Position numbers and translations under genes: made by a program. Source: Natrinema ejinorense (lineage in GTDB: Archaea; Halobacteriota; Halobacteria; Halobacteriales; Natrialbaceae). From it: DNA of 64,000 nt. The stretch's first letter is position 1; each line of letters starts with the position of its first letter. Below the pieces are notes generated by a model. It made no database searches, was not told where the DNA came from, and saw nothing but the letters and a program-made list of their open reading frames with translations. Below, piece after piece: positions 921 through 54,941 of this stretch. The stretch covers positions 372,001 to 436,000 of the forward strand of contig NZ_NXNI01000001.1 of the NCBI RefSeq assembly GCF_002494345.1, given 5' to 3'.

Positions 921-1319
921 TTAGAAAATCGAATCGATCGAAACCTTCGCCTGTTCGGTTCCGCGGTGATCACCACCACCGTGCCAGCGCATCAACGGGA
1001 GCTCACTCGAGCGGACCATCTTGTCATTGAGGATCGTACAGCCGCTTCGTCCGTGGGGTCGATAGACGACGAAACAGTACCAGCCGTCGTGCCGCCGGAG
1101 TTTCTCGTGATACTGGCGATAGACCTTCCAGTTCCCCGGCTGCCCATCACTGTGCTCGAGCATCGTACTCTTGATTTCGACCGGCGTTCCGTTCCCGAAT
1201 CTCGCGTCGTGCCAACTCGAGCGCTCGAGATCGAAGCGGCGTTTCTTCGCCATCCGCTTTTCGCAGATCGTCCCGAAGTGGTTGGCTCGCTGTGAGCGAT
1301 TCACGCGGACCACGCGCAT
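921..1319 (-). CDS. PD-(D/E)XK nuclease-like protein
   Basis: A 132-residue basic protein. The segment GTPVEIKSTM (about residues 43-52) fits the D/E-x-K strand of the PD-(D/E)XK fold, and WYCFVVY fits the following beta strand. The start, with an N-terminal EKRMAKKRR, resembles Holliday-junction-resolvase-like haloarchaeal proteins. It lies downstream of the VP8-like ATPase of the leftward virus-like module. The protein at 15737-16246 shares the same GTPVEIKS signature. The nuclease activity and DNA-processing role are inferred. Confidence 0.55.
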   Translation of the reverse strand: MRVVRVNRSQRANHFGTICEKRMAKKRRFDLERSSWHDARFGNGTPVEIKSTMLEHSDGQPGNWKVYRQYHEKLRRHDGWYCFVVYRPHGRSGCTILNDKMVRSSELPLMRWHGGGDHRGTEQAKVSIDSIF

Positions 1320-1479
1320 CGCGCGCCGATATATATACTTCTCCGCTGGTGTCTCGCCGCGATCGCGAGCGATGGGCGAAGATTGTGAGTAATTGAGCGT
1401 GAGTGAGCGCTGGGCGTTGGGCCTGCGATCCCCCTAAACGGGGGTCGATTCCGGTTTACAGGTTTCCACCCCGACGCTC

Positions 1480-2280
1480 TCATGCGATCACCTGTTCGAC
1501 CGTGTTAACCCAATCGGCCTTTTCGCCGCCCTCATCGATGTCGTTCCACCAGTTCGAGACGGTAGCGTGGCTGTAGGGAACGTACTCGGCGGTTTCGCGC
1601 GCCGACATTCCCTGTTGTCTGCAGGTTTCCATCGTCCAGGCAGCGACTCGCTTGACCTCGCTTTCGGCGATTTCCGGCCCGCTGTCGTCGCTCGCGGGAG
1701 CGGACCAGGACCAGTCCGCTTCGTCGTTCGTGTGAGGTTCGAAATCGGCTGGCGGAATACCTTTCAGTGGCCGCGGATCGACGTCTTTCAGCTTCCCGCC
1801 AGCGATCCGCTCGGCGATCAGGGCTTTCCCCTTGTTGTTCCGGTCGGGCTTCTTGAGAATCGTACCGACGCGCCACAGGAGCGGATGGATCGAACTCTCG
1901 TCATGACCGATATAGACGAGTGCGCCGTTGTACTTGCGGATTTTGAACACGAGCGGCCCCATCAACTTCCGGACCTTCTGGCCGTCTTTTCCGGTGCCGC
2001 TCCCGTTCGTACTGAACTCGTCGCCGATGAACAGCTTCGGCTGTTGGGGGTTCGTGACCGGGTCACCGTCCTGGCCGACCCATTCCTCGAGGAGCGGGTA
2101 GTTGGGAATCCAGCCGTCCTCAATGGAACCATCGTCGCGAGTCCAGTCGTCATTGCGATCCAGCGTTCGGATGTTACTCGCGACGCGGAGATCGCCGTCG
2201 ACCCAGCGGTCACGCAACTGCGTGACGAGACACGCGAGGTTCGTTTTGCCAGCTCCCATTTCGCCGAGGATCACGATCAC
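1480..2280 (-). CDS. VP8-like P-loop ATPase, C-terminal part
   Basis: Read from the first canonical start (GTG 2280) this gives 266 residues. Walker A is GEMGAGKTN right at the N-terminus and Walker B is LFIGDEF near residue 87; the last 60 residues contain an HTH-like stretch (MSARETAEYVPYSHATVSNWW). A P-loop at residue 6 leaves no room for the first beta strand. In-frame coding continues upstream to a TGA at 2488-2490 (for example KNRDILQAEGSATARQALDN), so the real protein is longer. In pleolipoviruses an ATPase-like VP8 ends the structural block, as here. It could act in genome handling or assembly. Confidence 0.6.
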   Translation of the reverse strand: MIVILGEMGAGKTNLACLVTQLRDRWVDGDLRVASNIRTLDRNDDWTRDDGSIEDGWIPNYPLLEEWVGQDGDPVTNPQQPKLFIGDEFSTNGSGTGKDGQKVRKLMGPLVFKIRKYNGALVYIGHDESSIHPLLWRVGTILKKPDRNNKGKALIAERIAGGKLKDVDPRPLKGIPPADFEPHTNDEADWSWSAPASDDSGPEIAESEVKRVAAWTMETCRQQGMSARETAEYVPYSHATVSNWWNDIDEGGEKADWVNTVEQVIA

Positions 2281-2487
2281 CGGCGCGGGTCCCGCGACGA
2301 TCTGCCGGAGCCGAGAGATCGCTTTGATACCGGAGAGGTCTGCCTCTTGGCTCGGATCGCCGATGTAGTGTTTCAGCGTCAGCGTGTCGCCGTTGTCGAG
2401 CGCTTGGCGGGCCGTCGCGCTTCCCTCTGCTTGCAGGATGTCTCGGTTCTTCCCGACGCTTAGATAGTCCGCGGCGGCCTTCCCCTC
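2281..2487 (-). pseudogene. open in-frame stretch between TGA and GTG of the ATPase
   Basis: 69 codons in the same frame as both flanking ORFs with no ATG, GTG or TTG start. The translation looks like ordinary haloarchaeal protein (GKAAADYLSVGKNRDIL near the 5' end, RLRQIVAGPAPVIVILGEMG at the 3' end). It joins 2488-2655 and 1480-2280 into one 391-codon reading frame broken only by the TGA at 2488-2490. This could be a nonsense mutation (CGA to TGA), a sequencing error, recoding, or initiation at a CTG. Confidence 0.55.
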
Positions 2488-2655
2488 TCAGCGGTCCGGG
2501 TCGTGATGAATCGCCCGCATCGACATCTGGCGGTCGATTTGCTCGTCTCTCACGAACCCGGAGTGGGGAAGCACCTCGTCGGGATCGCGCTCGAGGTTGT
2601 TAGCTTGGAACTCTCGGAAGCCGCCGACCGTGTAGTTATCTTGCTCGTCACTCAT
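2488..2655 (-). CDS. N-terminal piece of the VP8-like ATPase, or a 55-aa protein
   Basis: ATG 2655 (MSDEQDNYTVGGFREFQA) overlaps the end of the upstream gene (stop at 2648), as expected for translational coupling. The 55-residue product ends at a TGA and lies in the same frame as the ATPase downstream. It is either an independent small protein or the N-terminus of a split ATPase. The frame identity and lack of a downstream start favour the split. Confidence 0.6.
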   Translation of the reverse strand: MSDEQDNYTVGGFREFQANNLERDPDEVLPHSGFVRDEQIDRQMSMRAIHHDPDR

Positions 2656-3478
2656 CGTGACCACCGTCCGCTCGAGCGGGTGAGTCGATCCCGTCGACGG
2701 TATCGTACAGTCGGTTCGGACGGGGTCGCGGCGCGTGCTCGCCGTGCCTGCGGATGTACTCGTCTTCGTAGCCGTCGATGTCTTCGATGTCTTCGCGAGC
2801 CTTGTCCTCGACATCGGATTTGGCCGCGTCGAAGCGGTCCTTGACCGTCGTTTTCGGGTTCATCAGGCCGCGCTCGTCGGCTTCCGCTTCTTGATTGATC
2901 ACGTCGCTCTGGATCTCGAGCCCCATTTTGGAGATACGTCCACGGAGTCGATTCAACTCGAGGAACGCGTCGACGAGGTCGCCGTGCACGTCCTCGAGCA
3001 TGGCCTTACTCGTGACGAGTTTCGAGTCGGCCATCTGACTCATGTAGCAGCCGGTCACTCGGAGTTCGTCCATGTCTTCGAAGCGCTCGAACTCGCGCAC
3101 CTCGTAGGCATCGCCGTCGTTGACGACGTACGGGCTCGGTCCGTCAACGGTCTTTTGCTCCCACAGTTCCGGTGCGACGTAGTACTTTTCGCGGGTATCT
3201 GTCACGCCGTTGATGTGGTACACTGTTTCTCTGTGCCGGTTGCGGAGCTTCTCGGCACCGACCGCGAACAGGCCGAACAGCGGCGGCCCGAGTAGCATCA
3301 ACGCAACAGCGATCCCGACGGCGATCGGCGGCACGCCAGGGACCGACGGACGGACCAACAGCAACAGGATACCGATCGAGATCGCGATACCGATCACGAG
3401 CAACTGTGCCTCTGCAACGATGTACGTGAGTCGGTCTTTCCAACTGCCGAACGTCGTACTCAGGTTCCGGTCACTCAT
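2648..3478 (-). CDS. membrane protein with long cytoplasmic domain, pleolipovirus ORF7-like position
   Basis: 276 residues. Two hydrophobic segments lie at about 20-45 (LLVIGIAISIGILLLLV) and 50-75 (IAVGIAVALMLLGPPLFGLF), followed by a 200-residue acidic, helical domain. It overlaps the genes on both sides by 4-8 bp (ATGA-type junctions), so it belongs to the same operon as the spike and the ATPase. Pleolipovirus genomes have membrane proteins of unknown role between spike and ATPase. The order matches, but I cannot show homology from sequence alone. Confidence 0.6.
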   Translation of the reverse strand: MSDRNLSTTFGSWKDRLTYIVAEAQLLVIGIAISIGILLLLVRPSVPGVPPIAVGIAVALMLLGPPLFGLFAVGAEKLRNRHRETVYHINGVTDTREKYYVAPELWEQKTVDGPSPYVVNDGDAYEVREFERFEDMDELRVTGCYMSQMADSKLVTSKAMLEDVHGDLVDAFLELNRLRGRISKMGLEIQSDVINQEAEADERGLMNPKTTVKDRFDAAKSDVEDKAREDIEDIDGYEDEYIRRHGEHAPRPRPNRLYDTVDGIDSPARADGGHDE

Positions 3479-4050
3479 GCTTTCTCGACCCCTTTCGATT
3501 CGGTTTTGACGACGTAGAACGCCGCCAGCGCGGCGAGTCCGACCGTCATTATCACGCCCGTGAACAGTCCCGTTGCCCCGCCGAACGCTTCGAACGGATC
3601 ATTGCTTCCCGACATGCCGCTTGAGAGTCGGACGGTGCCGCCGCGAGTCGAGACGGACACCGCTGAGTCGCCATTGATCGACGCGACGGACAGGGAGATC
3701 TCGTTGCGTCCCTCGCTCAGTTGGTATTCTTTCTCGGGGACTTTGGTCGCACCCTCCTGTTCGATCCCCGCGAGCGCGTCGCTCACGATCATTGGCTGTG
3801 GCTCCTCGCTTTCGATCACCATCTGAGCGTCACCGTCGCCGACTTCGAACTCGACAACCCGCGTTTGATCATCGATCGCGATCTGCTCGAGGGCGGTCTG
3901 GTTGCTCTCGTTGGCTGGAGCGCTCTGGTTTCCCCCGTCTTGTGCGCTCACAGGCCCAACGCCCATGCCCATGCCCATGCCCATCACCGCGATTGCGACG
4001 ACCGCGAGCGCCAGCACTACTCGCACACTTGAAAACGCAACACGAGACAT
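3475..4050 (-). CDS. secreted, C-terminally anchored membrane protein
   Basis: 191 residues from ATG 4050 (MSRVAFSSVRVVLALAVV). It has a Sec-type signal peptide ending near GVGPVSAQ, an acidic extracellular domain with several N-glycosylation sequons, and a C-terminal TM (GVIMTVGLAALAAFYVV) with a short basic tail. The start sits 2 bp after the spike stop. The signal peptide carries an in-frame CCCATG repeat on the plus strand (Met-Gly repeats). By position it may be a second envelope protein of the virus-like element. Confidence 0.65.
   Translation of the reverse strand: MSRVAFSSVRVVLALAVVAIAVMGMGMGMGVGPVSAQDGGNQSAPANESNQTALEQIAIDDQTRVVEFEVGDGDAQMVIESEEPQPMIVSDALAGIEQEGATKVPEKEYQLSEGRNEISLSVASINGDSAVSVSTRGGTVRLSSGMSGSNDPFEAFGGATGLFTGVIMTVGLAALAAFYVVKTESKGVEKA
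3962..3984. repeat. hexanucleotide tandem repeat (CCCATG) x ~4
   Basis: Four near-perfect copies of CCCATG lie in the signal-peptide region of the 3475-4050 gene and encode alternating Met-Gly. A 6-bp unit keeps frame, so length changes would only lengthen the hydrophobic core. Confidence 0.7.
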
Positions 4051-4052
4051 GG

Positions 4053-5675
4053 TTAGGGCCCCAATTCTCCCGCGAGGTTGGTTACTGCCGATGCAACGAT
4101 CGCGATGATCGCGATGAGGAATGCAGCTGCGAGCCACATGTCGCCGCTCCCGTTCTCGGGGAGCCAGCCGCCGGCCCCGCCGAGGATTCCGTCACCGGAG
4201 CCATCATACGTTGATGTGATCGCGGACCGCTCGGAGTCGGCTTTATCCGTCACACGCTGATACTCAGTGGCGTTGAAGGTTCCGTAATCGGGTTTATCAG
4301 TGATATCAGTCTGATTTACCTCGTTTCCGTCACCGTCTGTCATCTTCGTGATCGTCATATTCCCACGGTAAAACACCACGTCTGAGGTGTTTCCGTCGGC
4401 CCCTCCGGTGACCATCCTTTGGGTGCCGTTGAGGTTCGACACGTCGTAGGTCATGCCCGTCTCGAACCCGCCAGCGGGTGTTTCGTCAGTGAACAGCACG
4501 CCCTCGTAGGATTTGTTAACGCTATTGTACTCGTACGTCACTGCTCCCGTGCTATTATTGACCATCCGAGTCCGCTCGGTTGCACCCTCGAAATCGACAA
4601 ACATGGTCGAATTGAGCGAGGTCCGATCCATGTCCATCACGCTCCGCAGCGCGTACTGGTAGCGTTGGTCGGTCACATTCCCATCGCCGCTTAGATAGCG
4701 GACCATGCCCTCCGCGCCACGCAGATCGTTGGTCTCTATCTCGCCGCTGTCCAGCGCGGTGTAGAACTCTTGTGCCGTCCCAGAGTCATAGTTTGCGACG
4801 ACCGTGTCCGATTGATTAGCAATCTCATTGAAGCGGTCTTGAGTGAGGCGGAAATCGTAGATCGTCTTCGCCTCGAGGGAGCCGGTATTCAAGAGGTGAA
4901 CACTACCGTCGAGATATCCCCAGGAACTTCCGATGTCAGACACCCTGTAGCTATTCGGATGTTCGTGGTCCTCAGACTCACGCTCCATTTCAATGAGGTT
5001 AGGCGACTTCGCAGCAGTTGATCCGTCCGCAGCGGTGACCTGGAACTCAGGCAACGTCACATTGTGAACACTACCATTTGCCAGAGTCACCTCATGTTCG
5101 GTGGTATTCCCGGTTAGTGGTGCGGAATCGTACCCAGCAGCACCGTACACGAAACCATCCAAGATTTCAGCCTCTTTTTTCGAGGTATTCGCGTAGGCAG
5201 CCATCTGGGTGCTGTGAGACGATGTATCTTCGAGTAACTGAATCTGTTTTGTTGCGTAATAGTTGTTGATGGCCTCCTGAGCCATCGTGTCGGCAACTGC
5301 AGGGTCCGTCTCATTTTCGTACGCGCTTGCGAGCGTATTCCGCGCTTCCATCGACGCGATCGAACCAGTATCTTCCAGATAATTCTGAATGACCTGATCT
5401 GTCTGATCTTGGGACGACTTGATGCCAGACCCTCCGATATGGATGTCTTTCTCAATCTCCGACGCCGCTTGGTCGGCATCGACCGTTTGCGGGTTCTCAT
5501 CAGTACAGTCGAAAATCCACCAGTTGACCGCATCATACATGCACTCATTTTCGGGTGAGTCGGTCTGAGCCGCGACCGTCCCCGTCGCCGCGATCGGAGC
5601 GAGCAGCGAGCCGACCAGGAGCACCGCGAGCATGGCCGCAAACACGCGGTGGGCTATGGGCCGATGGGCCGACAT
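4053..5675 (-). CDS. pleolipovirus VP4-like spike protein
   Basis: 540 residues with a clear signal peptide (VFAAMLAVLLVGSLLAPIAA, cleavage probably after VAAQ), a large extracellular domain rich in N-x-S/T sequons, and one C-terminal TM (AAAFLIAIIAIVASAVTNLA) with almost no cytoplasmic tail. Size, topology and position between a small multi-TM protein and two membrane proteins plus an ATPase match the spike genes of haloarchaeal pleomorphic viruses. It would mediate attachment and fusion. The N-terminal half (about 4750-5550) is more AT-rich than the rest, as often seen in receptor-binding regions. An S-layer-like host surface protein is the alternative. Confidence 0.6.
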   Translation of the reverse strand: MSAHRPIAHRVFAAMLAVLLVGSLLAPIAATGTVAAQTDSPENECMYDAVNWWIFDCTDENPQTVDADQAASEIEKDIHIGGSGIKSSQDQTDQVIQNYLEDTGSIASMEARNTLASAYENETDPAVADTMAQEAINNYYATKQIQLLEDTSSHSTQMAAYANTSKKEAEILDGFVYGAAGYDSAPLTGNTTEHEVTLANGSVHNVTLPEFQVTAADGSTAAKSPNLIEMERESEDHEHPNSYRVSDIGSSWGYLDGSVHLLNTGSLEAKTIYDFRLTQDRFNEIANQSDTVVANYDSGTAQEFYTALDSGEIETNDLRGAEGMVRYLSGDGNVTDQRYQYALRSVMDMDRTSLNSTMFVDFEGATERTRMVNNSTGAVTYEYNSVNKSYEGVLFTDETPAGGFETGMTYDVSNLNGTQRMVTGGADGNTSDVVFYRGNMTITKMTDGDGNEVNQTDITDKPDYGTFNATEYQRVTDKADSERSAITSTYDGSGDGILGGAGGWLPENGSGDMWLAAAFLIAIIAIVASAVTNLAGELGP

Positions 5676-5676
5676 T

Positions 5677-5820
5677 TCAGAGACCCCCCGTCGCGAGCAG
5701 GTGCGCGAGCATCGCCAGCTCGTACAGCGCGATCGCGACGATCGCCGCGACCGCGATGGTCAGGGTTGCCGACGCGATCCGATTCACGATCGAGGTATCG
5801 GTTTTGATTGAATCCGTCAT
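5677..5820 (-). CDS. 47-aa single-TM protein
   Basis: Starts at ATG 5820 (MTDSIKTDTSIVNRIASA) and consists of a short polar N-terminus and one TM helix (IAVAAIVAIALYELAMLAHLL). It sits 5 bp after the VP3-like gene and 1 bp before the spike start, so it is clearly part of the operon. Probably a minor envelope protein; function unknown. Confidence 0.6.
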   Translation of the reverse strand: MTDSIKTDTSIVNRIASATLTIAVAAIVAIALYELAMLAHLLATGGL

Positions 5821-5825
5821 CGTGA

Positions 5826-6218
5826 TCACTCCGTGTAGGAAATCCAGCCGGTTACGAACGTGACCAGGACCGTGCCGCCGATCAAGAACCAGTCGTTGCT
5901 CGAGAGCAACTGATTGAACGCGGGGACGAACTCGAAGACGACTGGGAATAGGAGCGTCCCGACGATCGACCATTTCTCCATGTCCGAGTAGTTCGAGCCG
6001 TCGAACTCGTTGGTCCAGAGGATCCACAGGACGGATGTGGTCGCCCCAATCAGGGGAACCGAGAAGTTCACACCACCGGCGCTGTAGAACGCCGAGTTGA
6101 AATTGTAGCCACCCAGGACCTCGAGGTTCCACGACCAGACCCCGAAGACCATCGATGCAAATGTGGGGTAGACCCACAGCGCCGCGTAGTCAATTTTGTC
6201 GATAACGTCTCTTGCCAT
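5826..6218 (-). CDS. VP3-like four-TM membrane protein
   Basis: 130 residues from ATG 6218 (MARDVIDKIDYAALWVYP). Four hydrophobic segments, among them FASMVFGVW, VPLIGATTSVLWILW, IVGTLLFPVVFEFV and LIGGTVLVTFVTGWI. Pleolipovirus VP3 is a small internal membrane protein with four TMs encoded directly before the spike, the same size and order as here. It is the first gene of the leftward operon; the intergenic stretch up to 6313 should hold its promoter and that of the divergent gene. Confidence 0.6.
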   Translation of the reverse strand: MARDVIDKIDYAALWVYPTFASMVFGVWSWNLEVLGGYNFNSAFYSAGGVNFSVPLIGATTSVLWILWTNEFDGSNYSDMEKWSIVGTLLFPVVFEFVPAFNQLLSSNDWFLIGGTVLVTFVTGWISYTE

Positions 6219-6313
6219 TGTGCAACGGTGAAGCGGATTACCGCTCTCGCCGAAAATGTCAGCTAATCCTAGGTTCAGCAACCTTTATGCCAAGGCGGGT
6301 TGCCGCCCGTTCC

Positions 6314-6499
6314 ATGGCGTTGAACAAACTCAGAGAGTTAGACCAGAACTCGGCAGGCGTGACCCTTCCGAAAGACGACCTCCGCCTTGAGGGACTACTC
6401 GACGAAGACGGAGAGATCGACGGTGAGCATCACGTCCATATCCGTCACGTCGACGACGGCCAGTGGTCGCTCAAGCTCGTCGAAGAGATCGACGCGTAA
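6314..6499 (+). CDS. AbrB/SpoVT-like small regulator
   Basis: 61 residues from ATG 6314 (MALNKLRELDQNSAGVTLPK). The run SAGVTLPKDDLRLEGLLDED resembles the swapped-hairpin AbrB fold of haloarchaeal DUF8053-type proteins. It is divergent from the virus-like operon, so autoregulation or control of that operon is a reasonable inference. Confidence 0.6.
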   Translation: MALNKLRELDQNSAGVTLPKDDLRLEGLLDEDGEIDGEHHVHIRHVDDGQWSLKLVEEIDA

Positions 6500-6597
6500 C
6501 AGAGTCACGATACCCTCCTTCCTTGCTGATTTAGGTTGGAATCACATCTATTTGAGTGGTGATCGCTACCGAAAAATTTGAAAATCAAATTACAGCG

Positions 6598-7116
6598 TTA
6601 GCTGTAGTCGAAGTCGAATTCTTCGCTTGCAACTTGGGTCTGTGTATCGTCCTCCGCGATGACAGCAATAGCGGTTACGGTTCCGCTAATTTCTGTGTCC
6701 GTAGCACCCGAGTCAGCAGCAGCGAAGTGGACATCAGCACCATCATTACCATCACCAATAGTGACAGAATCCCCAACTGTTAGCTCTTTCATCTCGTCTA
6801 CTTGATCATCTTTCGATGTACCGTCTGGGTGTGCTGCTAGGTTGCTTTTAACTGCAGCACCAGATAGGTTTACATGGTCTGCGTTCCCAAGCGACGTAAT
6901 TTCCACTTGGATCTCCTGGGTACTATCATCGACTTCCATCGTCACACCTGCCTGTGCTTCCTGGCCCACGCTCCCACCAAGGTCAAGCACGAAGGCAGCA
7001 ATCACAGCTGCGAGAATGACCGTGATAGCAACCATTAGTATCACTCCGATCACAGGTGATACTGCCCGTTCTTGGTCACCCCCAATCAAACGACTTCTGT
7101 ATTTTTTAAGATCCAT
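6598..7116 (-). CDS. type IV pilin (PilA-like)
   Basis: 172 residues. A short basic leader ([18 protein letters not shown]) precedes the conserved haloarchaeal pilin H-domain ([20 protein letters not shown]), the class III signal cleaved by prepilin peptidase PibD. The exposed C-terminal domain is acidic and beta-rich. It lies 19 bp after the other pilin and is probably cotranscribed with it. Its inverted counterpart is 60084-60605. Role: adhesion or biofilm pilus subunit. Confidence 0.85.
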
Positions 7117-7135
7117 ATATTACTCCGAGATGATC

Positions 7136-7579
7136 TTAGCTGAAGTCCCACTCTTCGCTGCCAACCTGCGTTTGCGTCTCGCTCTCGTTGATTACGGCAA
7201 CAGCGGACATTTGTCCGCTTTCAGCGATATCGCCACTACCGCCATCGTACGCATAGGTGACAGCATCGCCGACCTTCATATATTCTGCAGAACTTGGCGC
7301 AGAACTACCAGACCAGTCACTCGACGTGAGGTTCACGTGGTCTGAATTCCCGAGTGACGTGACTTCGACCTGCACTTCATTAGCAGAACTGTCGACCTCC
7401 ATCGACACACCTGCCTGAGCTTCTTGCCCGACACTCCCACCAAGGTCGAGCACGAAGGCGGCGATGACTGCAGCGAGAATAACCGTAATCGCCACCATTA
7501 GAATAACCCCAATAACAGGTGAGACTGCGCGTTCGTCGTCCGATCCTATCAACTTCGGTTTGAGCGCTTTCAAATCCAT
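7136..7579 (-). CDS. type IV pilin (PilA-like)
   Basis: 147 residues from ATG 7579 ([18 protein letters not shown]); the ORF can extend upstream but this start matches the other pilins. Leader, PibD site and H-domain are as in its neighbour. The C-terminal part differs from its inverted counterpart at 59617-60063 mainly in a short loop (SGSSAPSS versus NTGSGAPSS). It is the first gene of the pilin pair; a TATA-like GGATAAGCTTTCTTA lies about 30 bp upstream. Confidence 0.85.
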
Positions 7580-7742
7580 AGTGTTCTCACGCATCGTGCA
7601 AACGGTAAGAAAGCTTATCCGCCCCCTCCCCAAACGGCGAGGTGCGGATTAGGGGATTTGGGAACCAACCTTGCGTCCCCGCTTTCTTGGACGTTGCCAC
7701 CGATGCTAATTCGTTGGAGGTTACCGGATACATATATATTTA

Positions 7743-7755
7743 CCTGATAGTCAGG
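7743..7755. promoter_or_regulatory. palindrome CCTGATAGTCAGG beside a TATA-like run
   Basis: A perfect 5-bp inverted repeat around TAG lies next to ACATATATATTTA, in the region between the pilins and the divergent gene at 7903. The same palindrome and TATA-like run are conserved at 59443-59455 although much of the surroundings has drifted. A regulator-binding site is inferred. Confidence 0.5.
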
Positions 7756-7902
7756 ATTGTTCTAGAAACAATGACTTTCAAAACTGAGAATCAGCCCCAA
7801 CTGGAAAACTCACAGTGGTGGCTTGAAGCTTCGTTGTCTGGCGATTTCGCCATCATATAACAAACCGGCACAGATTTGCCAGCCTGGACATATAAACGAC
7901 TC

Positions 7903-8691
7903 ATGAACGATCCAGATACGCTTGTCACTGAACGAGCCTTTGCGCGCACCTACGACGGTGGCGACTACGACAATACGTGGAGTGCGGTCAAACAGTATCG
8001 TCGCGCGGTCACGTTCAGCGTTGATAACCCAGAGACGAGTATTGGTGACATTGCCTCTGCGGCGGATGCACCGACCGAGCGGATCCGGCCATGGATTGAC
8101 GAGGGGGCAGTACCGCCTGTCATTCAAGGACTGTACAGCTCACATTCCCATGACTGGATCGGTGTCACGTACGATAATTTGACGCCACTGAACGTGCTCG
8201 TCGCGAACGTCTATTCAGGTGGAACAATTCATACCAATCACACACCGAAGTTTACTCTCAATGACGACGGACACGACGCAACCGTTATTAAAGCCCTTGA
8301 ACTGGCCGGTACTGGCTACCGGACGGAAGAATCAGGAACGAGTCAGGCAGTTGTCCCCGGCGAGGATGCGATCGCGCTTGGCCGTGTGCTGACTGTTCTC
8401 GGCGCACCGATGGGAAGAAAAACAGAGATCGAAGGGCTATCGCTGCCATGGTATCTCGACGACTCTCCGGAATCGGTCCGCAAGCGGTTCGTCGACTCCT
8501 ATCTCGAAAACCGGGCACTGACTGACCCGACGACCGATTCGATCCAAATCATGGAAGACCGGTCACAGTCTTATCGCGAGGAACTGGCCGAGTTGATCGA
8601 ATCTGTCACCGGAGAAAGGGTGACGGTCGGTGACGAGTCTGTGACGCTGTCCGCCGAAGCATCGCGGGCGCTTGGCTACGAACGCGCGTAG
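7903..8691 (+). CDS. unknown protein with HTH-like N-terminus, possibly homing-endonuclease-like
   Basis: 262 residues from ATG 7903 (MNDPDTLVTERAFARTYDGG). An N-terminal stretch (TSIGDIASAADAPTERIRPW) looks like a helix-turn-helix. The C-terminal part (LSLPWYLDDSPESVRKRFVD) recalls LAGLIDADG-type homing-endonuclease-like proteins of haloarchaea, but I see no clear catalytic motif. It is divergent from the pilin pair, and a decayed copy accompanies the inverted pilin pair near 59.1-59.3 kb. A pilin-linked regulator is an alternative. Confidence 0.55.
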   Translation: MNDPDTLVTERAFARTYDGGDYDNTWSAVKQYRRAVTFSVDNPETSIGDIASAADAPTERIRPWIDEGAVPPVIQGLYSSHSHDWIGVTYDNLTPLNVLVANVYSGGTIHTNHTPKFTLNDDGHDATVIKALELAGTGYRTEESGTSQAVVPGEDAIALGRVLTVLGAPMGRKTEIEGLSLPWYLDDSPESVRKRFVDSYLENRALTDPTTDSIQIMEDRSQSYREELAELIESVTGERVTVGDESVTLSAEASRALGYERA

Positions 8692-8805
8692 ATTGCTTGA
8701 TGGATTAGATAAGGGAATAATCAAATCAGATTCTACTGTTTTGATCATCTTTCAAGGTAGATCTCACTCGTCAGAAATTAATAGGTAGTACAGTAACTAC
8801 CGATC

Positions 8806-9816
8806 ATGATTTCGGACGCTCGAGCCCTCCGCCCTTCTCATATCCCGAGTGACCTCTACCATCGGGATGCGAAAATTGAACAGTTGGCCGACGCACTCCG
8901 GCCCATTGCGGACGGAGACACCGGAGAGAACGTGATCATCTTCGGTCCGAGCGGGACGGGGAAGACGACTCTCTCGAGGTTCGTCGTTCGCGAACTCGAG
9001 CACGAGACGCTCGATTTCCGCTGGGGCTACCATAACTGTATCTCCGGTTCATCAAAAGCCGAAGTTCTCTATGGAGTCATGCGCGATGCGGATTTGGGGG
9101 CGGATCTCAAAAAGATTGGATCACCGACGAGCGCATTTATAGATCGACTCCGTGAGAGCGACAAGCGAATCGTCGCGATTGTCGACGAGGTCGACGTGAT
9201 CGAGGACGATACGACGCTACAGGCACTCATCGATATTCCGAATGTGACGATCGTTGCGATCACGATTGACGAGGACGACCTCTTTGCCCACTTCGACTCT
9301 CGCGTTCGCAGTCGACTCCGGAGCGCAGAGACGATCACGCTGGATCGGTTCACCCACGCGCAACTGGTTGATATCCTTCAGGCGCGGATCCAAGCCGGAT
9401 TGCGCCCTGGGACGATCTCGAGCGACGCGATCGACAGTATCGCTGATATCGCTGCGGGAGACGCTCGTGAAGCCATCGGGATACTCCGGAGTGCAGCGCG
9501 AGCTATCTCGAGAGATGGCGATCGATCCCAGATCACTGTCGAGGTCGTCGACGATAACCGGACAGCGGCTCTCGAGGAGATCCACCTCGAACGTGTCGAG
9601 GATCTCGGCACACACAAGCGCCTGCTATACGATATCATCGAAGCCTCGGGGAAGGTTCCTAGTACAGAGCTGCACGATGCCTACGAACAGCGGGCACAGA
9701 ATACGAAGGCGAAGAGCACCCGACGACGGTACCTTACGAACCTTGAGGAAAAGTACGGACTAATCGAATCGAACGGAAACGGGAAAGGGAAGGTCTACGC
9801 TGTCCCCGACTTCTGA
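8806..9816 (+). CDS. orc1/cdc6: Orc1/Cdc6 replication initiator (replicon A)
   Basis: 336 residues. AAA+ ATPase: Walker A FGPSGTGKTT (about 45-54), Walker B IVDEVDV (about 125), sensor region around ITIDEDDLFAHF, then a lid and a C-terminal winged helix (SGKVPSTELHDAYEQRA). It is shorter than chromosomal Orc1 proteins and typical of plasmid or provirus initiators. Start ATG 8806 with DARALRPSHIPSDLYHRD is standard for the family. A close paralogue lies at 49042-50052 in the same orientation. It should bind repeats next to itself and load MCM. Confidence 0.9.
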   Translation: MISDARALRPSHIPSDLYHRDAKIEQLADALRPIADGDTGENVIIFGPSGTGKTTLSRFVVRELEHETLDFRWGYHNCISGSSKAEVLYGVMRDADLGADLKKIGSPTSAFIDRLRESDKRIVAIVDEVDVIEDDTTLQALIDIPNVTIVAITIDEDDLFAHFDSRVRSRLRSAETITLDRFTHAQLVDILQARIQAGLRPGTISSDAIDSIADIAAGDAREAIGILRSAARAISRDGDRSQITVEVVDDNRTAALEEIHLERVEDLGTHKRLLYDIIEASGKVPSTELHDAYEQRAQNTKAKSTRRRYLTNLEEKYGLIESNGNGKGKVYAVPDF

Positions 9817-9957
9817 GCTTTCCGTTCGTTCCGTTCGTTTTCCGTTCACTGGTGTAGAGGCTCTGCCTCTCCAGTTATTGGCTTCGAGAGCTATTTTCGC
9901 CCATTTTCCGTTCACCTCCGCTCTGGACTTATCTACGGCTGTGATCTTCATTCGCTC
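9817..9957. promoter_or_regulatory. CCGTTC-repeat region, possible origin iterons
   Basis: Directly after orc lie repeated TTCCGTTC/CCGTTCGT units (9822-9851) and another TTTTCCGTTC at about 9904-9913, then CTTATC some 30 bp before the next ATG (leaderless-type promoter). The same units recur around 53854-53876 and 53939-53950 in replicon B. A role as Orc-binding origin or as promoter element is inferred. Confidence 0.4.
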
Positions 9958-10239
9958 ATGTCTGTCCAAGCAGACCGTTCAAGGTCGAGTGAATCACGAT
10001 TGAGTAGGAAACTCGAGGATGGCCGAGTCGTCGACATCGAGATCACTGGATCGCCGGAGAACAAGAAGCGGATCGATGTTCGCGTCGAGCGTGGGCGGCA
10101 CTGGGTATTTGCAGTCCAGAATCAAACCGCTGGGCTGATAATGACGCTGAACGCGGACGGGCAGCGCGTTGATGACGAGATTCCCAGCTGGCTCGAGCCG
10201 TTACTCCGACAGATCGGACTCGAGGGGGTCGAGAAATGA
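9958..10239 (+). CDS. conserved partner gene downstream of orc
   Basis: 93 residues with no domain I recognise. It has a beta-rich core (RVVDIEITGSPENKKRIDVR, then RHWVFAVQNQTAGLI) and a C-terminal helix (PSWLEPLLRQIGLEGVE). The paralogue at 53992-54264 keeps the same core and the same position after orc, so the pair is probably a replication or maintenance unit of this element family. Confidence 0.7.
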   Translation: MSVQADRSRSSESRLSRKLEDGRVVDIEITGSPENKKRIDVRVERGRHWVFAVQNQTAGLIMTLNADGQRVDDEIPSWLEPLLRQIGLEGVEK

Positions 10240-10241
10240 GC

Positions 10242-10493
10242 CTACCTGTTATTGTCGATCCACTCGCACCAGGCACGGAAGTCCTCTGCACCGCATTGAT
10301 TAGCAATCGATCGCATCGTCCCGGTCGGGATCTTGTCTTCGGAATGCATCGGAACAGTGACGGTCCGTACCTCGTCGGTTTCGGGGTGTTCGTATCGGAG
10401 CTTCAGGTGGCTTCCCGTTCGGTCGATTGGACGGAACCCGTGATCCTGAAGAACCTTCGCGATTTCCCGTCCGGAAAACGTCGTCCGAACCAT
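10242..10493 (-). CDS. hicA: HicA toxin (mRNA interferase)
   Basis: 83 residues with the dsRBD-like HicA fold: FSGREIAKVLQDHGF, then GSHLKLRY containing the catalytic His, then TVPMHSEDKIPTGTMRSI. HicA toxins cleave mRNA and are neutralised by HicB. It directly follows hicB with the ORFs abutting (antitoxin first, as usual in archaea). It probably stabilises replicon A; replicon B lacks it and has another small minus-strand gene at this place. Confidence 0.85.
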   Translation of the reverse strand: MVRTTFSGREIAKVLQDHGFRPIDRTGSHLKLRYEHPETDEVRTVTVPMHSEDKIPTGTMRSIANQCGAEDFRAWCEWIDNNR

Positions 10494-10751
10494 CTACTGC
10501 ATGAACTCGGGGAGTTCCTTGTCACCGGTAGCGTCGGGATCGAGCCCCCATTCTTCGAGATCTGCGTCTGTGACCGGCTCACCGCCGCCCTCGTGCAGTT
10601 CGAGGGCTTCCGCGAGCATCGACAGTGCTTCGGCCTTGGAGTCGCCGAACGATGCAACACCGGTCTCGAGATCGACGGCGGTAATACTCCCGTTGTCTTC
10701 GTGGACGAACTCGACGCCCTCGTTTCGGTCACGTCGTGTCGCACTCGCCAT
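10494..10751 (-). CDS. hicB: HicB antitoxin
   Basis: 85 residues from ATG 10751 (MASATRRDRNEGVEFVHED). The partial RNase H-like HicB core is visible (GSITAVDLETGVASFGDSKAEALSML). The ORF can extend to 10814, but the internal start fits the family better. Paired with hicA. Confidence 0.8.
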   Translation of the reverse strand: MASATRRDRNEGVEFVHEDNGSITAVDLETGVASFGDSKAEALSMLAEALELHEGGGEPVTDADLEEWGLDPDATGDKELPEFMQ

Positions 10752-10817
10752 ATACCGCCACGTAGGAGAAAGACGCTGATAAGCGTTCGCTCCGCACCGA
10801 CGAGACCCGGACACCGA

Positions 10818-11087
10818 TCACTCGGTATCCGGCTCGAGGTCGTCCGCGTCGAGATCTCCCTCGAGATAAGCTTCACCTTCTGGAGTGATTCGATAGTAAC
10901 CAGCGTCGTCGACCTTTTCGATGAGCCCGTACTCGACAAGCACGGGAAGCCGTTCCTGAACGGTTGTTCTTGCCTTTCCGATATTGTGTGCGATAGTCGA
11001 CGGTTTAAGATCCAATCCGGTGGTGAGGGCTTCCAGAATCTGGTTATCAGTTGGAAGTTGCATCCAGCCACCGGGTTGCTTCATCAA
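10818..11087 (-). CDS. winged-helix repressor (PhiH1-like)
   Basis: 89 residues: a winged helix (TDNQILEALTTGLDLKPSTI, then KARTTVQERLPVLVEYGLI with wing YYRITPEGEAYLEG), like the phage PhiH1 repressor-type regulators of haloarchaeal mobile elements. It is divergent from the 11319 operon and separated from it by a palindrome at 11160-11173, so it probably represses that operon and itself. The counterpart in replicon B is 54541-54816. Confidence 0.75.
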   Translation of the reverse strand: MMKQPGGWMQLPTDNQILEALTTGLDLKPSTIAHNIGKARTTVQERLPVLVEYGLIEKVDDAGYYRITPEGEAYLEGDLDADDLEPDTE

Positions 11088-11159
11088 TTGTCAATCACAG
11101 ACTGTGCTTTTGAAAGAATCGCATGGCCACTATCTTCAGACTATATAGTTCGAAAAGGC

Positions 11160-11173
11160 GTACTATCTAGTAC
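11160..11173. promoter_or_regulatory. operator-like palindrome GTACTATCTAGTAC
   Basis: A perfect 6-bp inverted repeat with a 2-bp spacer in the divergent region between the winged-helix gene and the 11319 operon; a TATA-like CTATATAG lies just before it (about 11140-11147). A likely site for the divergent repressor. Confidence 0.5.
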
Positions 11174-11210
11174 GAGTTTTTATTGTGCTGGAGTTAAGAC
11201 TGGTTGGATA

Positions 11211-11300
11211 ACGCGAGTTTCACGTGGACCCGACTGTCCGTTGGGTCCGCTCGGAAAATGCGGGCCGGTGATGGTGACACCGGGTCCGCGCGGCTCGCGT
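11211..11300 (+). ncRNA. conserved three-stem leader RNA, copy A
   Basis: A 90-nt element before the PadR-like gene, matching 54942-55031 at 83 of 90 positions. Stem P1 pairs ACGCGAG (11211-11217) with CTCGCGT (11294-11300). Hairpin P2 pairs GGACCC (11226-11231) with GGGTCC (11243-11248). P3 pairs GCGG/CCGC and CCGGTG/CACCGG (11260-11270 with 11278-11289). The one change in P1 between copies (C-G to A-T) is compensatory. ATG follows 18 nt after P1. It could be a regulatory leader, a small RNA or a DNA structure; its function is unknown. Confidence 0.6.
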
Positions 11301-11318
11301 AGATGTGGTACGCAAGCC

Positions 11319-11747
11319 ATGTACGACGACACTTCGCGGGGTCTTGAAAGCCCCGACACGACAGACGCATCGACCCTTTCTGACCAGCGACTCGTGGCCG
11401 ACGGCGGCACGACGTGGGGTAATCTCACTGGGTTCCAGCGCGACGCCCTGGAAGCGATCGCTCGTCTCGAGCGCGATGACGAGACCTGCTACGGACTCGC
11501 GATTAAGAATCAGCTCGAGCCCAAGTATGGTGAAGTGAATCACGGACGGCTGTACTCGAACCTCGATGCGCTCGTCGAGCGCGGACTCGTCGAGAAGTCG
11601 GCCCTCGACAAGCGCACGAACGAATACGTTCTCACCAGCGATGGGCGTGGGCTGCTACGCCAGCATCTCGAGCGGCTCGCGGACGCTTGTGGACTCGAGA
11701 TCGCCGCGACCGACGGTTCCGGAGATGGTGATCACGATGGGGAGTGA
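11319..11747 (+). CDS. PadR-like winged-helix regulator
   Basis: 142 residues from ATG 11319 just after the structured leader; the upstream in-frame extension to 10236 is antisense to hicBA and is not used. N-terminal RGLESPDTT is shared with the otherwise unrelated gene at 55050. Residues about 35-125 are PadR-like (GFQRDALEAIARLERDDETC, then GRLYSNLDALVERGLVEKSA). The same domain ends the 55469-56395 protein of replicon B. Probably an element regulator. Confidence 0.75.
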   Translation: MYDDTSRGLESPDTTDASTLSDQRLVADGGTTWGNLTGFQRDALEAIARLERDDETCYGLAIKNQLEPKYGEVNHGRLYSNLDALVERGLVEKSALDKRTNEYVLTSDGRGLLRQHLERLADACGLEIAATDGSGDGDHDGE

Positions 11748-12075
11748 TGAGTTCCTCGCCCTCGAGGCGCAACTCGAGGTGTTCGAGCGCCAGGCCGACG
11801 CGATGGAACGACAGACCGCGGCCCTCGAGGCGATCGCCACGGAACTCCGCTATCAGAACGCGGCGCTGGTCGAGATGATCGCGTGTCTCGACGATCTATC
11901 GGCTCGCGTCGACGACCATCATATGCCGGACCACCCGCCACACGATCGGTCCGGACCCGCGTTGCAGACGTGGCTGCAGGATCGGCTGTTCGAACGCGAC
12001 GAACTCGAGGACGATCACCCGCGATTCCGCTGGGGCAGTCCGGAGAACTGGTCCGGTGGTGATCGGGATGAGTGA
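11737..12075 (+). CDS. small coiled-coil protein
   Basis: 112 residues from ATG 11737. An N-terminal coiled coil (LEVFERQADAMERQTAALEA) is followed by a conserved tail (RFRWGSPENWSGGDRDE). The paralogue at 57248-57541 shares coiled coil and tail and also directly precedes the integrase region. It overlaps neighbours on both sides. Possibly an accessory or recombination directionality factor; inferred from position only. Confidence 0.65.
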   Translation: MGSDEFLALEAQLEVFERQADAMERQTAALEAIATELRYQNAALVEMIACLDDLSARVDDHHMPDHPPHDRSGPALQTWLQDRLFERDELEDDHPRFRWGSPENWSGGDRDE

Positions 12076-13156
12076 TGATCTCGAGCCGATCGCACCGCGC
12101 GAGGCGGTAGACATGTGGCTCGATCGGCTACAGTCCACGCGGGCCGATGAAACACTCAAGAGCTATCGTTACCGACTGAAGCCGTTCGTTCAGTGGTGCA
12201 GTGAACAGGGGATTGACAACCTGAACCTACTCACGAGTCGCGATATCTTCCAGTACGACTCGAGTCGTCGAGCGAAGGGGCTGAAGGTGTCGACACTGAA
12301 TAACCAGATCGGGACGCTCAAGCAGTTCATTCAGTTCTGCGCGCGGATCGACGCGGTAGACCAGGACCTTCCTGCGAAGATAGAGGTTCCATCCGTTGAC
12401 CTTGCCGATCGCGTCAACGAGGAACTGCTAACTGCCGAGCGTGCGGAGACGATTCGTGAGAATCTCCGCCGGTACGAACGCGCGTCGCGACGCCACGTGA
12501 TATTCGAACTGATGTGGCACACTGGGTGTCGACTCGGTGGGCTCTGCTCGCTTGACCTCGGGGATTGTTTCTTCGAGGAATCCGACCTTGAGCGGCTCCA
12601 ACATCAGGATGATATCGATTCGGAGGCCCTCGAGTCAGTCGAGTTGCCGTTCGTGTACTTCCGTCACCGCGAGACGACACCGCTGAAGAACAAGCGGGAA
12701 GGCGAGCGCCCGGTCGCGCTTGCGGAAGACGTCGCGGAGTATGTTCGCGAGTACATTCGTATCAATCGCGTTGAGCGTGCTGATGTCGACGAGCGACGGC
12801 CGCTCCTGACGACGGAGAAGGGGAAACATCCCCGAATATCGAAGTCCCATATCCGGCTGGAGATTTACACTATGACTCAGCCCTGTCAGTGGGGTGGGTG
12901 TCCCCACGACCGGGATACCATGAACTGCGAGGCCTTGGAGCATGGACAGCAGGCACGGTGTCCCTCGAGTCGGTCTCCCCATCCGATCCGAACGGGTGCG
13001 ATCACGAACATGCGAGACCGGGGCTGGCCGCCCGAAGTCGTCGCGGAGCGAGTGAACGCCACTCCCGAGGTGATTAGGGAACACTACGACCACCCCGACC
13101 CGATTCGGCGGATGCAGTCTCGTCGCGAGTTTCTGAATCGAGGTGATTCCGAATGA
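12068..13156 (+). CDS. tyrosine recombinase/integrase (replicon A)
   Basis: 362 residues from ATG 12068. SAM-like N-terminal core-binding domain (SYRYRLKPFVQWCSEQGI), catalytic domain with the first Arg in WHTGCRLGG, the box HPIRTG (HxxR) and the nucleophile Tyr in REHYDHPD. A Cys-rich insertion (CQWGGCPHDRDTMNC) before HxxR resembles zinc-finger insertions of haloarchaeal integrases. The paralogue is 57665-58849. It integrates or excises the element; I could not identify its att sites. Confidence 0.88.
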   Translation: MSDDLEPIAPREAVDMWLDRLQSTRADETLKSYRYRLKPFVQWCSEQGIDNLNLLTSRDIFQYDSSRRAKGLKVSTLNNQIGTLKQFIQFCARIDAVDQDLPAKIEVPSVDLADRVNEELLTAERAETIRENLRRYERASRRHVIFELMWHTGCRLGGLCSLDLGDCFFEESDLERLQHQDDIDSEALESVELPFVYFRHRETTPLKNKREGERPVALAEDVAEYVREYIRINRVERADVDERRPLLTTEKGKHPRISKSHIRLEIYTMTQPCQWGGCPHDRDTMNCEALEHGQQARCPSSRSPHPIRTGAITNMRDRGWPPEVVAERVNATPEVIREHYDHPDPIRRMQSRREFLNRGDSE

Positions 13157-33418: not shown

Positions 33419-35770
33419 ATGTCGAACTCACGGGAGTCAGAGTCTGGTAGATATCTTCCAGAATACCACCACTCTCAGATTCTCCTATCAATTTCTCTAG
33501 AAGGTGCCGAGCGTACACGCGATATCGAAGACCACCTCGGCTGTTCGAACAAAACAGCCCTTAACAAACTCCATGAACTCCACAATGCAAATGTCCTCAC
33601 TGCTACTAAATGGGGAACCGCATACCGCTGGCAACTCAATACAAACCAACCGACACCTCCTGACTCACCCACCGACCTCACTGGTCTTCAACTCCCACAA
33701 CTACTTACGCAAGTCATAGAGCAACTCACTGAACACTATCTCACCCACTACAAACCACTTACACTCACAGACAATGTCTCCGACTGGCTCGACAAACGCG
33801 TAAATACTGACCGCGTTAATCCAGGCCACTACGCAACCAATAGTGCCCTATTCAATCGATTCCTCAAAGCCACTCTCTATGCACTCTACCAACCAGAAGC
33901 CAACTCCCTCGAAGCTTTGAGCCCGGGTGCCGACTGGAATTCCCAGTTCGAAGCCGCGGCCAACATAACTGACAACCACGCCTTCACCTCCTCTATAGAT
34001 ACACACCTCCCAGAGCATCCACAGCCAATTGACTCACTCTTGCTTGCGCTCCGCCACCTCGTCGTCCAGACCACCAACCCCTCCGAGGTTCTTGCAGACG
34101 TGTACGAGCAACTCATCTCACAGGCCGCCCGCCGAGACCTCGGCCAATTTGCCACTCCGAATCATGTCAGCCAGTTTATGGCATCTTGGGCAATCACCGA
34201 CCCAGATGATACCATTCTTGACCCCGGCATCGGCGCTGGGCAACTCGCCTATCAAGCCCTCCGCTGCAAGATGGATCAGGGCTGTCAAACTCCGATGCCA
34301 GATATCACCGGTATCGACGTCGACGAGATCGCGATTACCATGGCTGCCACCGCACTAAAGCTCGCCGACGGTCCAGGGTCTCCAAACCTCTACCAAGACG
34401 ATTTCATCCACTTCAGTCCCGTCTACTCAGGCACTCAATCACAATTCAAGGCCTACGATGTGATCATCGGTAACCCTCCTTACTCACGTCATCAGGCTGT
34501 CGACAACCAATCAAAAAACAACCTCAATACCATTATCTCAGAAGAAACCGGCCAGAACTTCTCACGACGCACCCCACTTTATGGATATTTCCTGATTCAT
34601 GCCGCCCAATTCCTCCGGGAAGGTGGCCGTGCTGCTTTCATCATGCCATCACAGTTCATGGCCACTGACTTCGGCATCGACATGAAATCATATCTACTTG
34701 AACATTTTACCATCCATGCAATCATTCAGCTTGATGATAGCGTCGACATCTTCGACGGCGTAAAAACAACTCCCAGTATCCTCCTTCTCGAAGCCGGTAC
34801 CCCCACAGATACCCACGAAATATCGTTCCTTAAACTCTCATACTGGCCCACCGACATCCCAGTCGCGACTCTTCTCGACCAACCCAGTCAGCGAGACTCC
34901 CATCAGGCAGTCGCCTTCCACGCTACGGTCGCACAACAAGTTCTCACCACCACCGAACGCTGGACACATTACTTCCATGAAACCGACATCCAAGATCATC
35001 CAGAACTCGTCGAATTCGACACCCTCGCTACCGTCAAACGTGGTATCGCCACCGGCAACAACAGTTTCTTTTGTCTCTCGCAAGCAGACATCGACGCCCA
35101 CAACATCCCTCCCGAGTATCGAGAGCGAATCCTGAAAACTGCTCGCGGACTTGATAAACTCAACATCACTACCGAAGATTGGAAGCAATGGCGAGATAAC
35201 GGCGATGATGTCTGGATGCTGTACTGCTACGATGACGACGGTAATATCCAACAGAGTGATGACATCGAAAGCCAAGCCGTCAAGGATTATCTGAACCATG
35301 GCCGCAAAACCGGGGTCACCGAAGGAACACTTGTGTCTCGGCGCAATCCCTGGTATCGCGTCGACAGACGCGACCCTCCGGACATCTTAGGCAAGTACAT
35401 GAATCGGAATGGGTTTCAATTCTACCGGAACGACGCCGATCTACTCACCACCAACAATACTCACACCATCTACCTCAACGACGAGGACACACTCAACGTG
35501 TTCCTTGCTTACCTCAACAGCAACTTCATCCGCGGGATCCTCTCCAAACGCAGCCGGAACTACAGCGGCCTCCAAAAACTCGAAATCAGCGACCTTGAAG
35601 CCGCCCCTGTCCTCGACGTTGCATCCATCCCTCAATCTCTCAAATCGCATCTCAGCACACTCTTCAACGACCTCTGCGACGCCCGCCGCGACCCAAACGC
35701 CGACGATACACAAATTCTCCAGCAAATCGATGAAGCTATCGAAGCCCACCTCGAATTCGACGCCTCCTAA
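33419..35770 (+). CDS. N6-adenine DNA methylase, PglX/type IIG-like, with N-terminal winged helix
   Basis: 783 residues from ATG 33419. The N-terminal winged helix (RTRDIEDHLGCSNKTALNKL) is unusual for the family. SAM motif I TILDPGIGAGQLAY (about 265), motif IV IIGNPPYSRHQ (about 350), and a C-terminal target-recognition region ending in coiled coil. No nuclease motif is obvious. The sense strand is strikingly C-rich and G-poor. It stands 183 bp before the dual-GHKL gene, same strand; methylase plus regulator or effector of one defence system is the inference. An orphan type IIG remnant is the alternative. Confidence 0.7.
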   Translation: MSNSRESESGRYLPEYHHSQILLSISLEGAERTRDIEDHLGCSNKTALNKLHELHNANVLTATKWGTAYRWQLNTNQPTPPDSPTDLTGLQLPQLLTQVIEQLTEHYLTHYKPLTLTDNVSDWLDKRVNTDRVNPGHYATNSALFNRFLKATLYALYQPEANSLEALSPGADWNSQFEAAANITDNHAFTSSIDTHLPEHPQPIDSLLLALRHLVVQTTNPSEVLADVYEQLISQAARRDLGQFATPNHVSQFMASWAITDPDDTILDPGIGAGQLAYQALRCKMDQGCQTPMPDITGIDVDEIAITMAATALKLADGPGSPNLYQDDFIHFSPVYSGTQSQFKAYDVIIGNPPYSRHQAVDNQSKNNLNTIISEETGQNFSRRTPLYGYFLIHAAQFLREGGRAAFIMPSQFMATDFGIDMKSYLLEHFTIHAIIQLDDSVDIFDGVKTTPSILLLEAGTPTDTHEISFLKLSYWPTDIPVATLLDQPSQRDSHQAVAFHATVAQQVLTTTERWTHYFHETDIQDHPELVEFDTLATVKRGIATGNNSFFCLSQADIDAHNIPPEYRERILKTARGLDKLNITTEDWKQWRDNGDDVWMLYCYDDDGNIQQSDDIESQAVKDYLNHGRKTGVTEGTLVSRRNPWYRVDRRDPPDILGKYMNRNGFQFYRNDADLLTTNNTHTIYLNDEDTLNVFLAYLNSNFIRGILSKRSRNYSGLQKLEISDLEAAPVLDVASIPQSLKSHLSTLFNDLCDARRDPNADDTQILQQIDEAIEAHLEFDAS

Positions 35771-50052: not shown

Positions 50053-50067
50053 ATTTCCCGCTCGTTC

Positions 50068-50386: not shown

Positions 50387-50398
50387 ATCATTCTTTAA

Positions 50399-53535: not shown

Positions 53536-53608
53536 TGCTCATCAGATCTGTTGTACCCAGAAACGCCAGTCACACCTCAGAAATAATCACATACCAACGT
53601 GTGTACGC

Positions 53609-53667
53609 TGCGAAACCATTTTTGCCAGGAAGTTCCTCGCTCGCACGGTGGATTCCCCGGGCTATCT
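53609..53667. repeat. direct repeat, right copy, flanking the two-gene cassette
   Basis: TGCGAAACCATTTTTGCCAG then GAAGTTCCTCGCTCGCACGG. Same orientation as 50261-50322. Confidence 0.55.
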
Positions 53668-53853
53668 TATTAGCCCGCATCGAGTGATCCGGTTGCTTCA
53701 GTATGAACTCAGCCCTGTGCGAGATGCGCCCTCTATTCAGTACTGTTCGCCGGAAGTCATCTGAAATTGGCAGGTTCCTCAGTGGTCAATTCGCATCCCT
53801 CAGCGACCAACTGTTTTGTACAAGGACTTATTTGATGAGTAAGATTTCAATAG

Positions 53854-54930: not shown

Positions 54931-54941
54931 GATTGTGCTTC

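Follow-up and report, generated by a model that had tools for sequence, protein, structure and literature searches.

The window analysed here, a stretch of 64,000 nucleotides (nt) from the haloarchaeon Natrinema ejinorense, carries two copies of a structured leader RNA, one at 11211 to 11372 and one at 54942 to 55100. Conserved structure with compensatory changes is found in all helices of this element, as in structured cis-regulatory leader RNAs, and two of the helices, P1 and P4, are mutually exclusive while both covary, as in RNA switches. The explanation that we consider rather probable is a cis-acting leader RNA that would gate translation of the first excision or early gene through an exchange between P1 and P4. 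No published description of the leader was found; an earlier mention in the main SNJ2 papers (2018, 2023) is possible, and the leader RNA is apparently undescribed so far.

Structure of the element

An earlier note, made from the letters of the window, had reported that the leaders at 11211 to 11300 and 54942 to 55031 match at 83 of 90 positions, and pairwise alignment gives the same identity (92%). It is indeed higher than that of the orc genes of the two elements (78% for nucleotides, 84% for amino acids). The single difference inside a stem is the P1 pair formed by positions 4 and 87, a compensatory change from C-G to A-T; the remaining differences lie in the linker (positions 40, 41, 44 and 48) and in the P3 loop (61). 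The flanks of the two leaders are less alike, with 50% identity for the divergent Orf4-like genes, 50% for the upstream 110 nt and 52% for the first gene after its conserved beginning.

The note correctly placed the start codon at 11319, 18 nt past 11300, but ended the element too early, the true end lying near 11372. Likewise the pair of copies in the window is real, but the leader belongs to a large family with hundreds of copies on mobile elements. A blastn search gave matches in 80 of the 392 genomes of the order Halobacteriales, and in an alignment of 33 copies the conservation does not stop at the start codon but reaches as far as codon 18 or so. Helices P1, P2, P3 and P5 went into a first covariance model, R1, and a second one, R2, was built from 102 diverse copies. 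The full structured element measures about 160 nt and consists of P1 to P3, a segment C, the AUG and then P5 within the coding region. Its parts are as follows.

11211 to 11372, forward strand: whole element, copy 1 (R2 161.4 bits, E 1.1e-35 in the window; R1 187.3 bits)
11211 to 11217, forward strand: 5′ strand of P1, segment A, ACGCGAG, pairing with 11294 to 11300
11226 to 11248, forward strand: P2 hairpin, covarying, with near-complete sequence turnover and pairing kept
11249 to 11259, forward strand: linker between P2 and P3 with a conserved AAA, its A's near-invariant in the alignments
11260 to 11289, forward strand: P3 hairpin with a bulged G, covarying
11294 to 11300, forward strand: segment B, CTCGCGT, 3′ strand of P1 and, within 11292 to 11301, also 5′ strand of P4; triple covariation of A, B and C
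11309 to 11318, forward strand: segment C, TACGCAAGCC, 3′ strand of P4, abutting the AUG; covarying, with P4 outside the alignment model
11319 to 11321, forward strand: start codon of the first gene, ATG in 132 of 132 distinct tags (the tag is the conserved N-terminal part of its reading frame)
11337 to 11355, forward strand: P5 hairpin, codons 7 to 13 (RGLESPD), covarying, with frozen third codon positions
11367 to 11372, forward strand: 3′ box GNATCG, codons 17 and 18, conserved at the third position
54942 to 55100, forward strand: whole element, copy 2 (R2 146.6 bits, E 2.9e-32)
55023 to 55049, forward strand: P4 of copy 2, GGCTCTCGTA and TACGAAAGCC, before the start codon at 55050
55068 to 55086, forward strand: P5 hairpin of copy 2, from the sequence and the R2 match

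Compensatory changes in the helices

Compensatory double substitutions were counted on the sequence tree in two alignments, A3 and A4, with a null in which the substitutions of each column were re-placed randomly on the branches. In A3 and A4, respectively, the doubles number 20 and 14 for P1 (null means 1.2 and 0.8), 23 and 36 for P2 (3.7 and 3.4), 21 and 21 for P3 (1.1 and 1.2) and 7 and 17 for P5 (0.8 and 2.0). P4, which is absent from the aligning model, has 11 and 9 (0.5 and 0.4). Shuffled and slid controls agree with these tree-based counts. In P2 almost the entire sequence is replaced among the copies while the pairs are retained. The covariation of P1 to P3 that the earlier note had proposed to look for among homologues is thus present far above the null, and of the three roles it had named, a small RNA, a protein-binding DNA or RNA structure and a cis-regulatory RNA, it is the last that is supported.

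The three-stem fold of P1 to P3 is also borne out, on comparative evidence. Both copies fold better than 200 of 200 shuffled sequences (z −3.5 to −4.2), and in the same test the opposite strand does just as well (z −4.0 to −4.2). The unconstrained minimum free energy structure of a single copy deviates from the three-stem fold within P1. Because of these two results it is the comparative data that decide on the fold, and not single-sequence folding.

The repeats could instead be double-stranded DNA sites, such as a repressor operator or arm sites for integrase or excisionase, with an RNA fold that is incidental. Segments A, B and C form inverted and direct repeats near a promoter and an integrase operon, which suits such a role, as does the folding of the opposite strand (z about −4). 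In A3 and A4 together, A.C appositions also exceed G.U pairs in P1 (69 vs 19) and P4 (132 vs 6), an excess that arises from a few columns in which an A.C apposition is tolerated. In P2 and P5 the order is reversed: on the transcribed strand G.U far exceeds A.C (155 vs 40 in P2, 84 vs 16 in P5), as expected for RNA and contrary to a DNA site. Sequence-specific DNA binding leaves the turnover of P2 with retained pairing unexplained. The element is phased to the TATA box and the AUG and runs into codons, and as an operator candidate a separate palindrome by the TATA box is preferable. We regard DNA sites as a very improbable explanation.

An alternative helix at the start codon

Segment C is a second copy of segment A, the 5′ strand of P1, and competes with it for segment B, giving the P4 hairpin that ends at the AUG. 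Since strand B is common to both, P1 and P4 are mutually exclusive. The three segments change together: the central A/B/C triplets are G-C-G in 70, C-G-C in 16 and A-T-A in 6 cases in A3, and 35, 12 and 12 in A4. In copy 2 of the window the change from C-G to A-T in P1 recurs in segment C, so that the pairing of P4 is kept. The outermost pair of P4 (columns 138 and 146), which lies outside P1, covaries by itself, with 3 doubles in each of the two alignments (p 0.0025 in both).

Promoter, start codon and coding region

Two features upstream of copy 1 are relevant to the start of the transcript.

11177 to 11184, forward strand: TATA-box-like TTTTTATT, 27 to 34 nt before P1, from the AT content over 132 upstream regions
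11160 to 11173, no strand assigned: palindrome GTACTATCTAGTAC adjoining the TATA box, from the sequence a candidate operator of the divergent repressor

Across 132 distinct upstream regions the TATA box is most pronounced from −31 to −27, counted from P1, with an AT content of 86-99%. This is how far an archaeal TATA box commonly lies from the start of transcription. Palindromes comparable to that of copy 1 are present at other copies among the upstream regions compared. The GenBank record of phage phiH1 gives 34556 as the start of the early lytic transcript T4, one base ahead of the same-strand model match, which opens at 34557. Transcription therefore probably begins at or adjoining the first base of P1, as judged from these sequences, and a start downstream of 11300, which the earlier note had named as evidence contrary to a leader, is disfavoured by both the TATA box and the T4 start. 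The leader has the orientation of the transcript and lies between its start and the start codon, the only directly mapped transcript start being that of phiH1, a distant relative.

The tag frame is open over 18 codons in 132 of 132 distinct tags, and segment C abuts the AUG in the tags examined; one copy (L185) has ACG at the start-codon position. The third codon positions of the tag are frozen, with CTT for Leu in 85 of 85 cases, GAA for Glu in 98 of 98 and CCC for Pro in 112 of 117. In the 3′ box, GCA is used for Ala in 67 of 68 cases, Glu is always GAA (30) and Val always GTA (19). Such frozen third positions in an open frame indicate selection on the RNA in this region as well. The third position of the GNATCG box, at 11367 to 11372 and in other copies, is kept without an identified pairing partner.

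The open frame in all distinct tags, and a tag open reading frame (ORF) of at most 40 codons in 22 of 142 copies, could point to leader-peptide control, in which the N-terminal tag M-x5-RGLESPDR-x-DAS would act as a stalling peptide or as a protein signal. The conservation sits, however, at third codon positions (CTT, GAA, CCC, GNA), residues change together with P5 pairing (GGG-AC/GU-CCC), the five leading codons vary, and P1 to P4 would have no explanation. Control by the peptide seems very improbable. A conserved upstream ORF in P3 (ATG at 11258, stop at 11300 to 11302) was considered and rejected; it is broken by insertions and deletions in the P3 loop and by copies with TTG, ACG or ATA.

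Family and distribution

Full-length matches to R1 occur in 178 and matches to R2 in 202 of the 392 genomes of the order; at most seven candidates were scored per genome in these order-wide searches, so copy numbers from them are lower bounds. Among the matches listed for a phylum-wide sample of 295 genomes none lies outside Halobacteriales. The element is carried by the pleolipovirus SNJ2 (90.5% identical), and model matches were found in other pleolipoviruses as well; the records matched are HRPV-9, plasmid pHK2, Halfgib1, Humcor2 and HHPV-4 (E 3e-5). Weak R2 matches were obtained for phiH1 (E 7e-4), phiCh1 (E 4e-3) and Harhisp1 (E 8e-3), all of these being rough E-values from a short calibration. 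LSV-48N and plasmid PL23, which have SNJ2-type integrases, gave no match, the expected site in LSV-48N spanning the end of the record. A scan of viral contigs with an exact pattern, probably too strict, gave no match either. No Rfam 15 family reached its gathering score over the element in the window and seven further loci, and a loose threshold (E up to 5) gave one match, at chance level.

The genome of N. ejinorense holds 10 strong copies by R1. A compact, stable and multi-copy RNA of this kind could be a trans-acting small RNA processed from the leader. An in-frame start codon follows it, however, and P5 and the 3′ box lie within the coding region, which makes a small RNA highly improbable.

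Gene context

The genes around the two copies are listed below.

10818 to 11087, reverse strand: divergent Orf4-like winged-helix repressor gene of copy 1 (Pfam HVO_A0261_N/HTH_IclR, weak)
11319 to 11747, forward strand: first gene, homologue of SNJ2 orf3, PadR-like, starting with the tag (PF03551, E 6e-11; SNJ2 gp3 is a "recombination accessory protein")
11737 to 12075, forward strand: homologue of SNJ2 orf2, collinear with SNJ2 gp2
12056 to 13156, forward strand: SNJ2-type tyrosine integrase (PF02899, PF00589)
54541 to 54828, reverse strand: divergent winged-helix regulator gene of copy 2 (HTH_IclR, E 7e-7)
55050 to 55469, forward strand: first gene of copy 2, with the same tag and an unrelated body (no Pfam match; 52% nucleotide identity to copy 1 after the tag)

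The gene order in SNJ2 is orf4 (divergent), leader, orf3, orf2, integrase, and the window copy 1 has the same operon and divergent regulator. The genes downstream of the leader form an SNJ2-type excision and integration operon. Orf4 reportedly represses the integrase genes, according to work on SNJ2 from 2023. With gene calls made by a simple script, a divergent Orf4-type winged-helix gene was found upstream in 120 of 164 unique elements, an SNJ2-type integrase downstream within the stretch examined in 52, and either an integrase or an Orf4-like gene in 144. The genes orf3-orf2-int of SNJ2 (orf1-3) are reported to be co-transcribed in the provirus, and the parts of that paper that were consulted describe no leader RNA (PMC13107129).

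The proteins that follow the tag vary and include PadR-like proteins, members of a family that has no Pfam match, TnpB-like proteins that contain a Cas12f1-like TNB domain, and short ORFs. At 12 loci (L055, L081, L082 and related ones) Cas12f1-like TNB-domain proteins, relatives of TnpB, stand directly behind the leader, some of them fused to the tag; these may be domesticated TnpB regulators on mobile elements.

The region 937 to 13156 is an SNJ2-like provirus that contains copy 1, with 82-90% nucleotide identity to SNJ2 over most structural and regulatory genes (about 90% across 6872 to 12248 and 82-86% across most of 1310 to 4814). A second SNJ2-related element, at 49042 to 60593, holds copy 2. 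In it a PadR-like domain is found at the end of the second gene (55469 to 56395); a PadR domain moved between genes and the leader stayed. The two elements have a repeat-rich stretch in common: several inverted, mutually overlapping matches to SNJ2 10.7-11.6 kb lie at 59391 to 60593 and again at 6857 to 7562. A role of the leader as replication origin was discarded, since SNJ2 has its origin in a different hairpin, located downstream of orf19.

Proposed mechanism

From the fold, the two exclusive helices, their phasing to promoter and AUG, and the gene context, we infer translational control by the P1/P4 exchange. In one state P1 would close a three-way junction with P2 and P3, so that the stretch ahead of the AUG stays open and translation of the first gene is possible. 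In the other, B would pair with C in P4 and close that stretch. The choice may be made by a signal at the P1-P2-P3 junction; candidates are a host-wide ligand, a protein that binds the RNA, and the ribosome. Since the RNA is kept while the proteins encoded behind it vary, the signal would be one shared by many hosts. The leader would then be a second layer beneath the divergent Orf4-like transcriptional repressor acting at the promoter, and the RNA a second check on the making of excision proteins.

When each of 167 copies was forced into either state, the computed energies came out close on average (median difference −0.4 kcal/mol), 89 copies preferring P1 and 75 preferring P4.

Comparison with known systems

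The rep-T4 region of phiH and phiCh1 may be distantly related to the family; it has a divergent winged-helix repressor, a match to P1 and P3, the A/B/C layout and an early lytic operon, and the phiH1 leader begins at the recorded T4 start. The T4 leaders of phiH1 and phiCh1 differ in that they match the model weakly, have a longer P1 and lack both P5 and an AUG after segment C. The T4/ORF49 leaders (phiH1 34556 to 34720, phiCh1 34040 to 34200) are very stable, with z −7.3 for phiH1, and carry an additional long hairpin downstream of the A/B/C layout.

The T1 leader of phiH, controlled by antisense RNA, was considered as the closest case. The PadR-like gene behind it is right, but it gives no model match while the T4 leader does. 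In phiH1 it measures 151 nt (38582 to 38732), precedes the PadR-like gene with a divergent imm gene, and is covered by the antisense RNA T(ant). It may be a further diverged or an analogous leader.

The processing of the phiH T1 messenger RNA (mRNA) via antisense RNA is the model for a reading in which the RNA is structured and does not gate the AUG. It would then be acted on by a protein or by antisense RNA and ribonuclease processing, or would determine mRNA stability, and the exchange between P1 and P4 would be a by-product or would set the processing. The T4-type leaders of phiH1 and phiCh1, without P5 and without an AUG after C, fit this reading. It is opposed by segment C abutting the AUG in the distinct tags examined, by the covariation of P4 and by the missing model match of phiH T1 itself, and we consider it unlikely.

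With riboswitches and RNA-protein attenuators the leader shares a 5′ position, a three-way junction closed by P1, an alternative helix that uses one P1 strand, adjacency to the start codon and occurrence before different genes. Unlike these, it has no Rfam match, shows no Shine-Dalgarno sequence in segment C, extends about 50 nt into the coding region and is confined, in the samples searched, to mobile elements of Halobacteriales. In operation it may resemble a riboswitch or an RNA-protein attenuator by analogy, and membership in the riboswitches cannot be claimed. The fluoride riboswitch is the sole experimentally shown natural archaeal riboswitch (PMC8241225). A haloarchaeal theophylline riboswitch, which is synthetic, unlike the natural leader, shows that a 5′ leader RNA can control translation there and that a Shine-Dalgarno sequence is not strictly needed (PMC8241225).

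Several points weigh against gating of the start codon by a P1/P4 switch. In phiH1 and phiCh1 such gating is impossible, since P5 and the AUG after C are lacking. The energy ranking of P1 and P4 ranges from −15.8 to +13.0 kcal/mol across the copies, and all energies hold for 37 °C and standard parameters that ignore molar KCl. The alignments A3 and A4 were fitted to P1, P2, P3 and P5, P4 retains a conserved C.A mismatch, and the A.C excess in P1 and P4 makes the strand argument clean only for P2 and P5. The roughness of the E-values belongs here as well.

Implications

The structured regulatory RNAs known from archaea are few. Roughly half of the haloarchaeal genomes sampled carry this leader, often more than once, and it stands where the passage of viruses and plasmids from dormancy to excision is controlled. 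Tentatively, it could be a natural riboswitch-type RNA with which many haloarchaeal mobile elements read a shared host signal (a metabolite, an ion or the translational state) to time their exit from lysogeny. On this tentative reading such an RNA would be placed below a repressor and would have spread through pleolipoviruses and plasmids and, more remotely, through head-tailed phages of the phiH group. The leader may offer an RNA context for the early phiH work that reported regulation beyond promoters. Because it spans the start codon and has two conserved folds, it lends itself to mutational tests in laboratory strains (SNJ2 in Natrinema sp. J7), and it becomes testable whether proviruses of archaea employ a sensor made of RNA in addition to a repressor.
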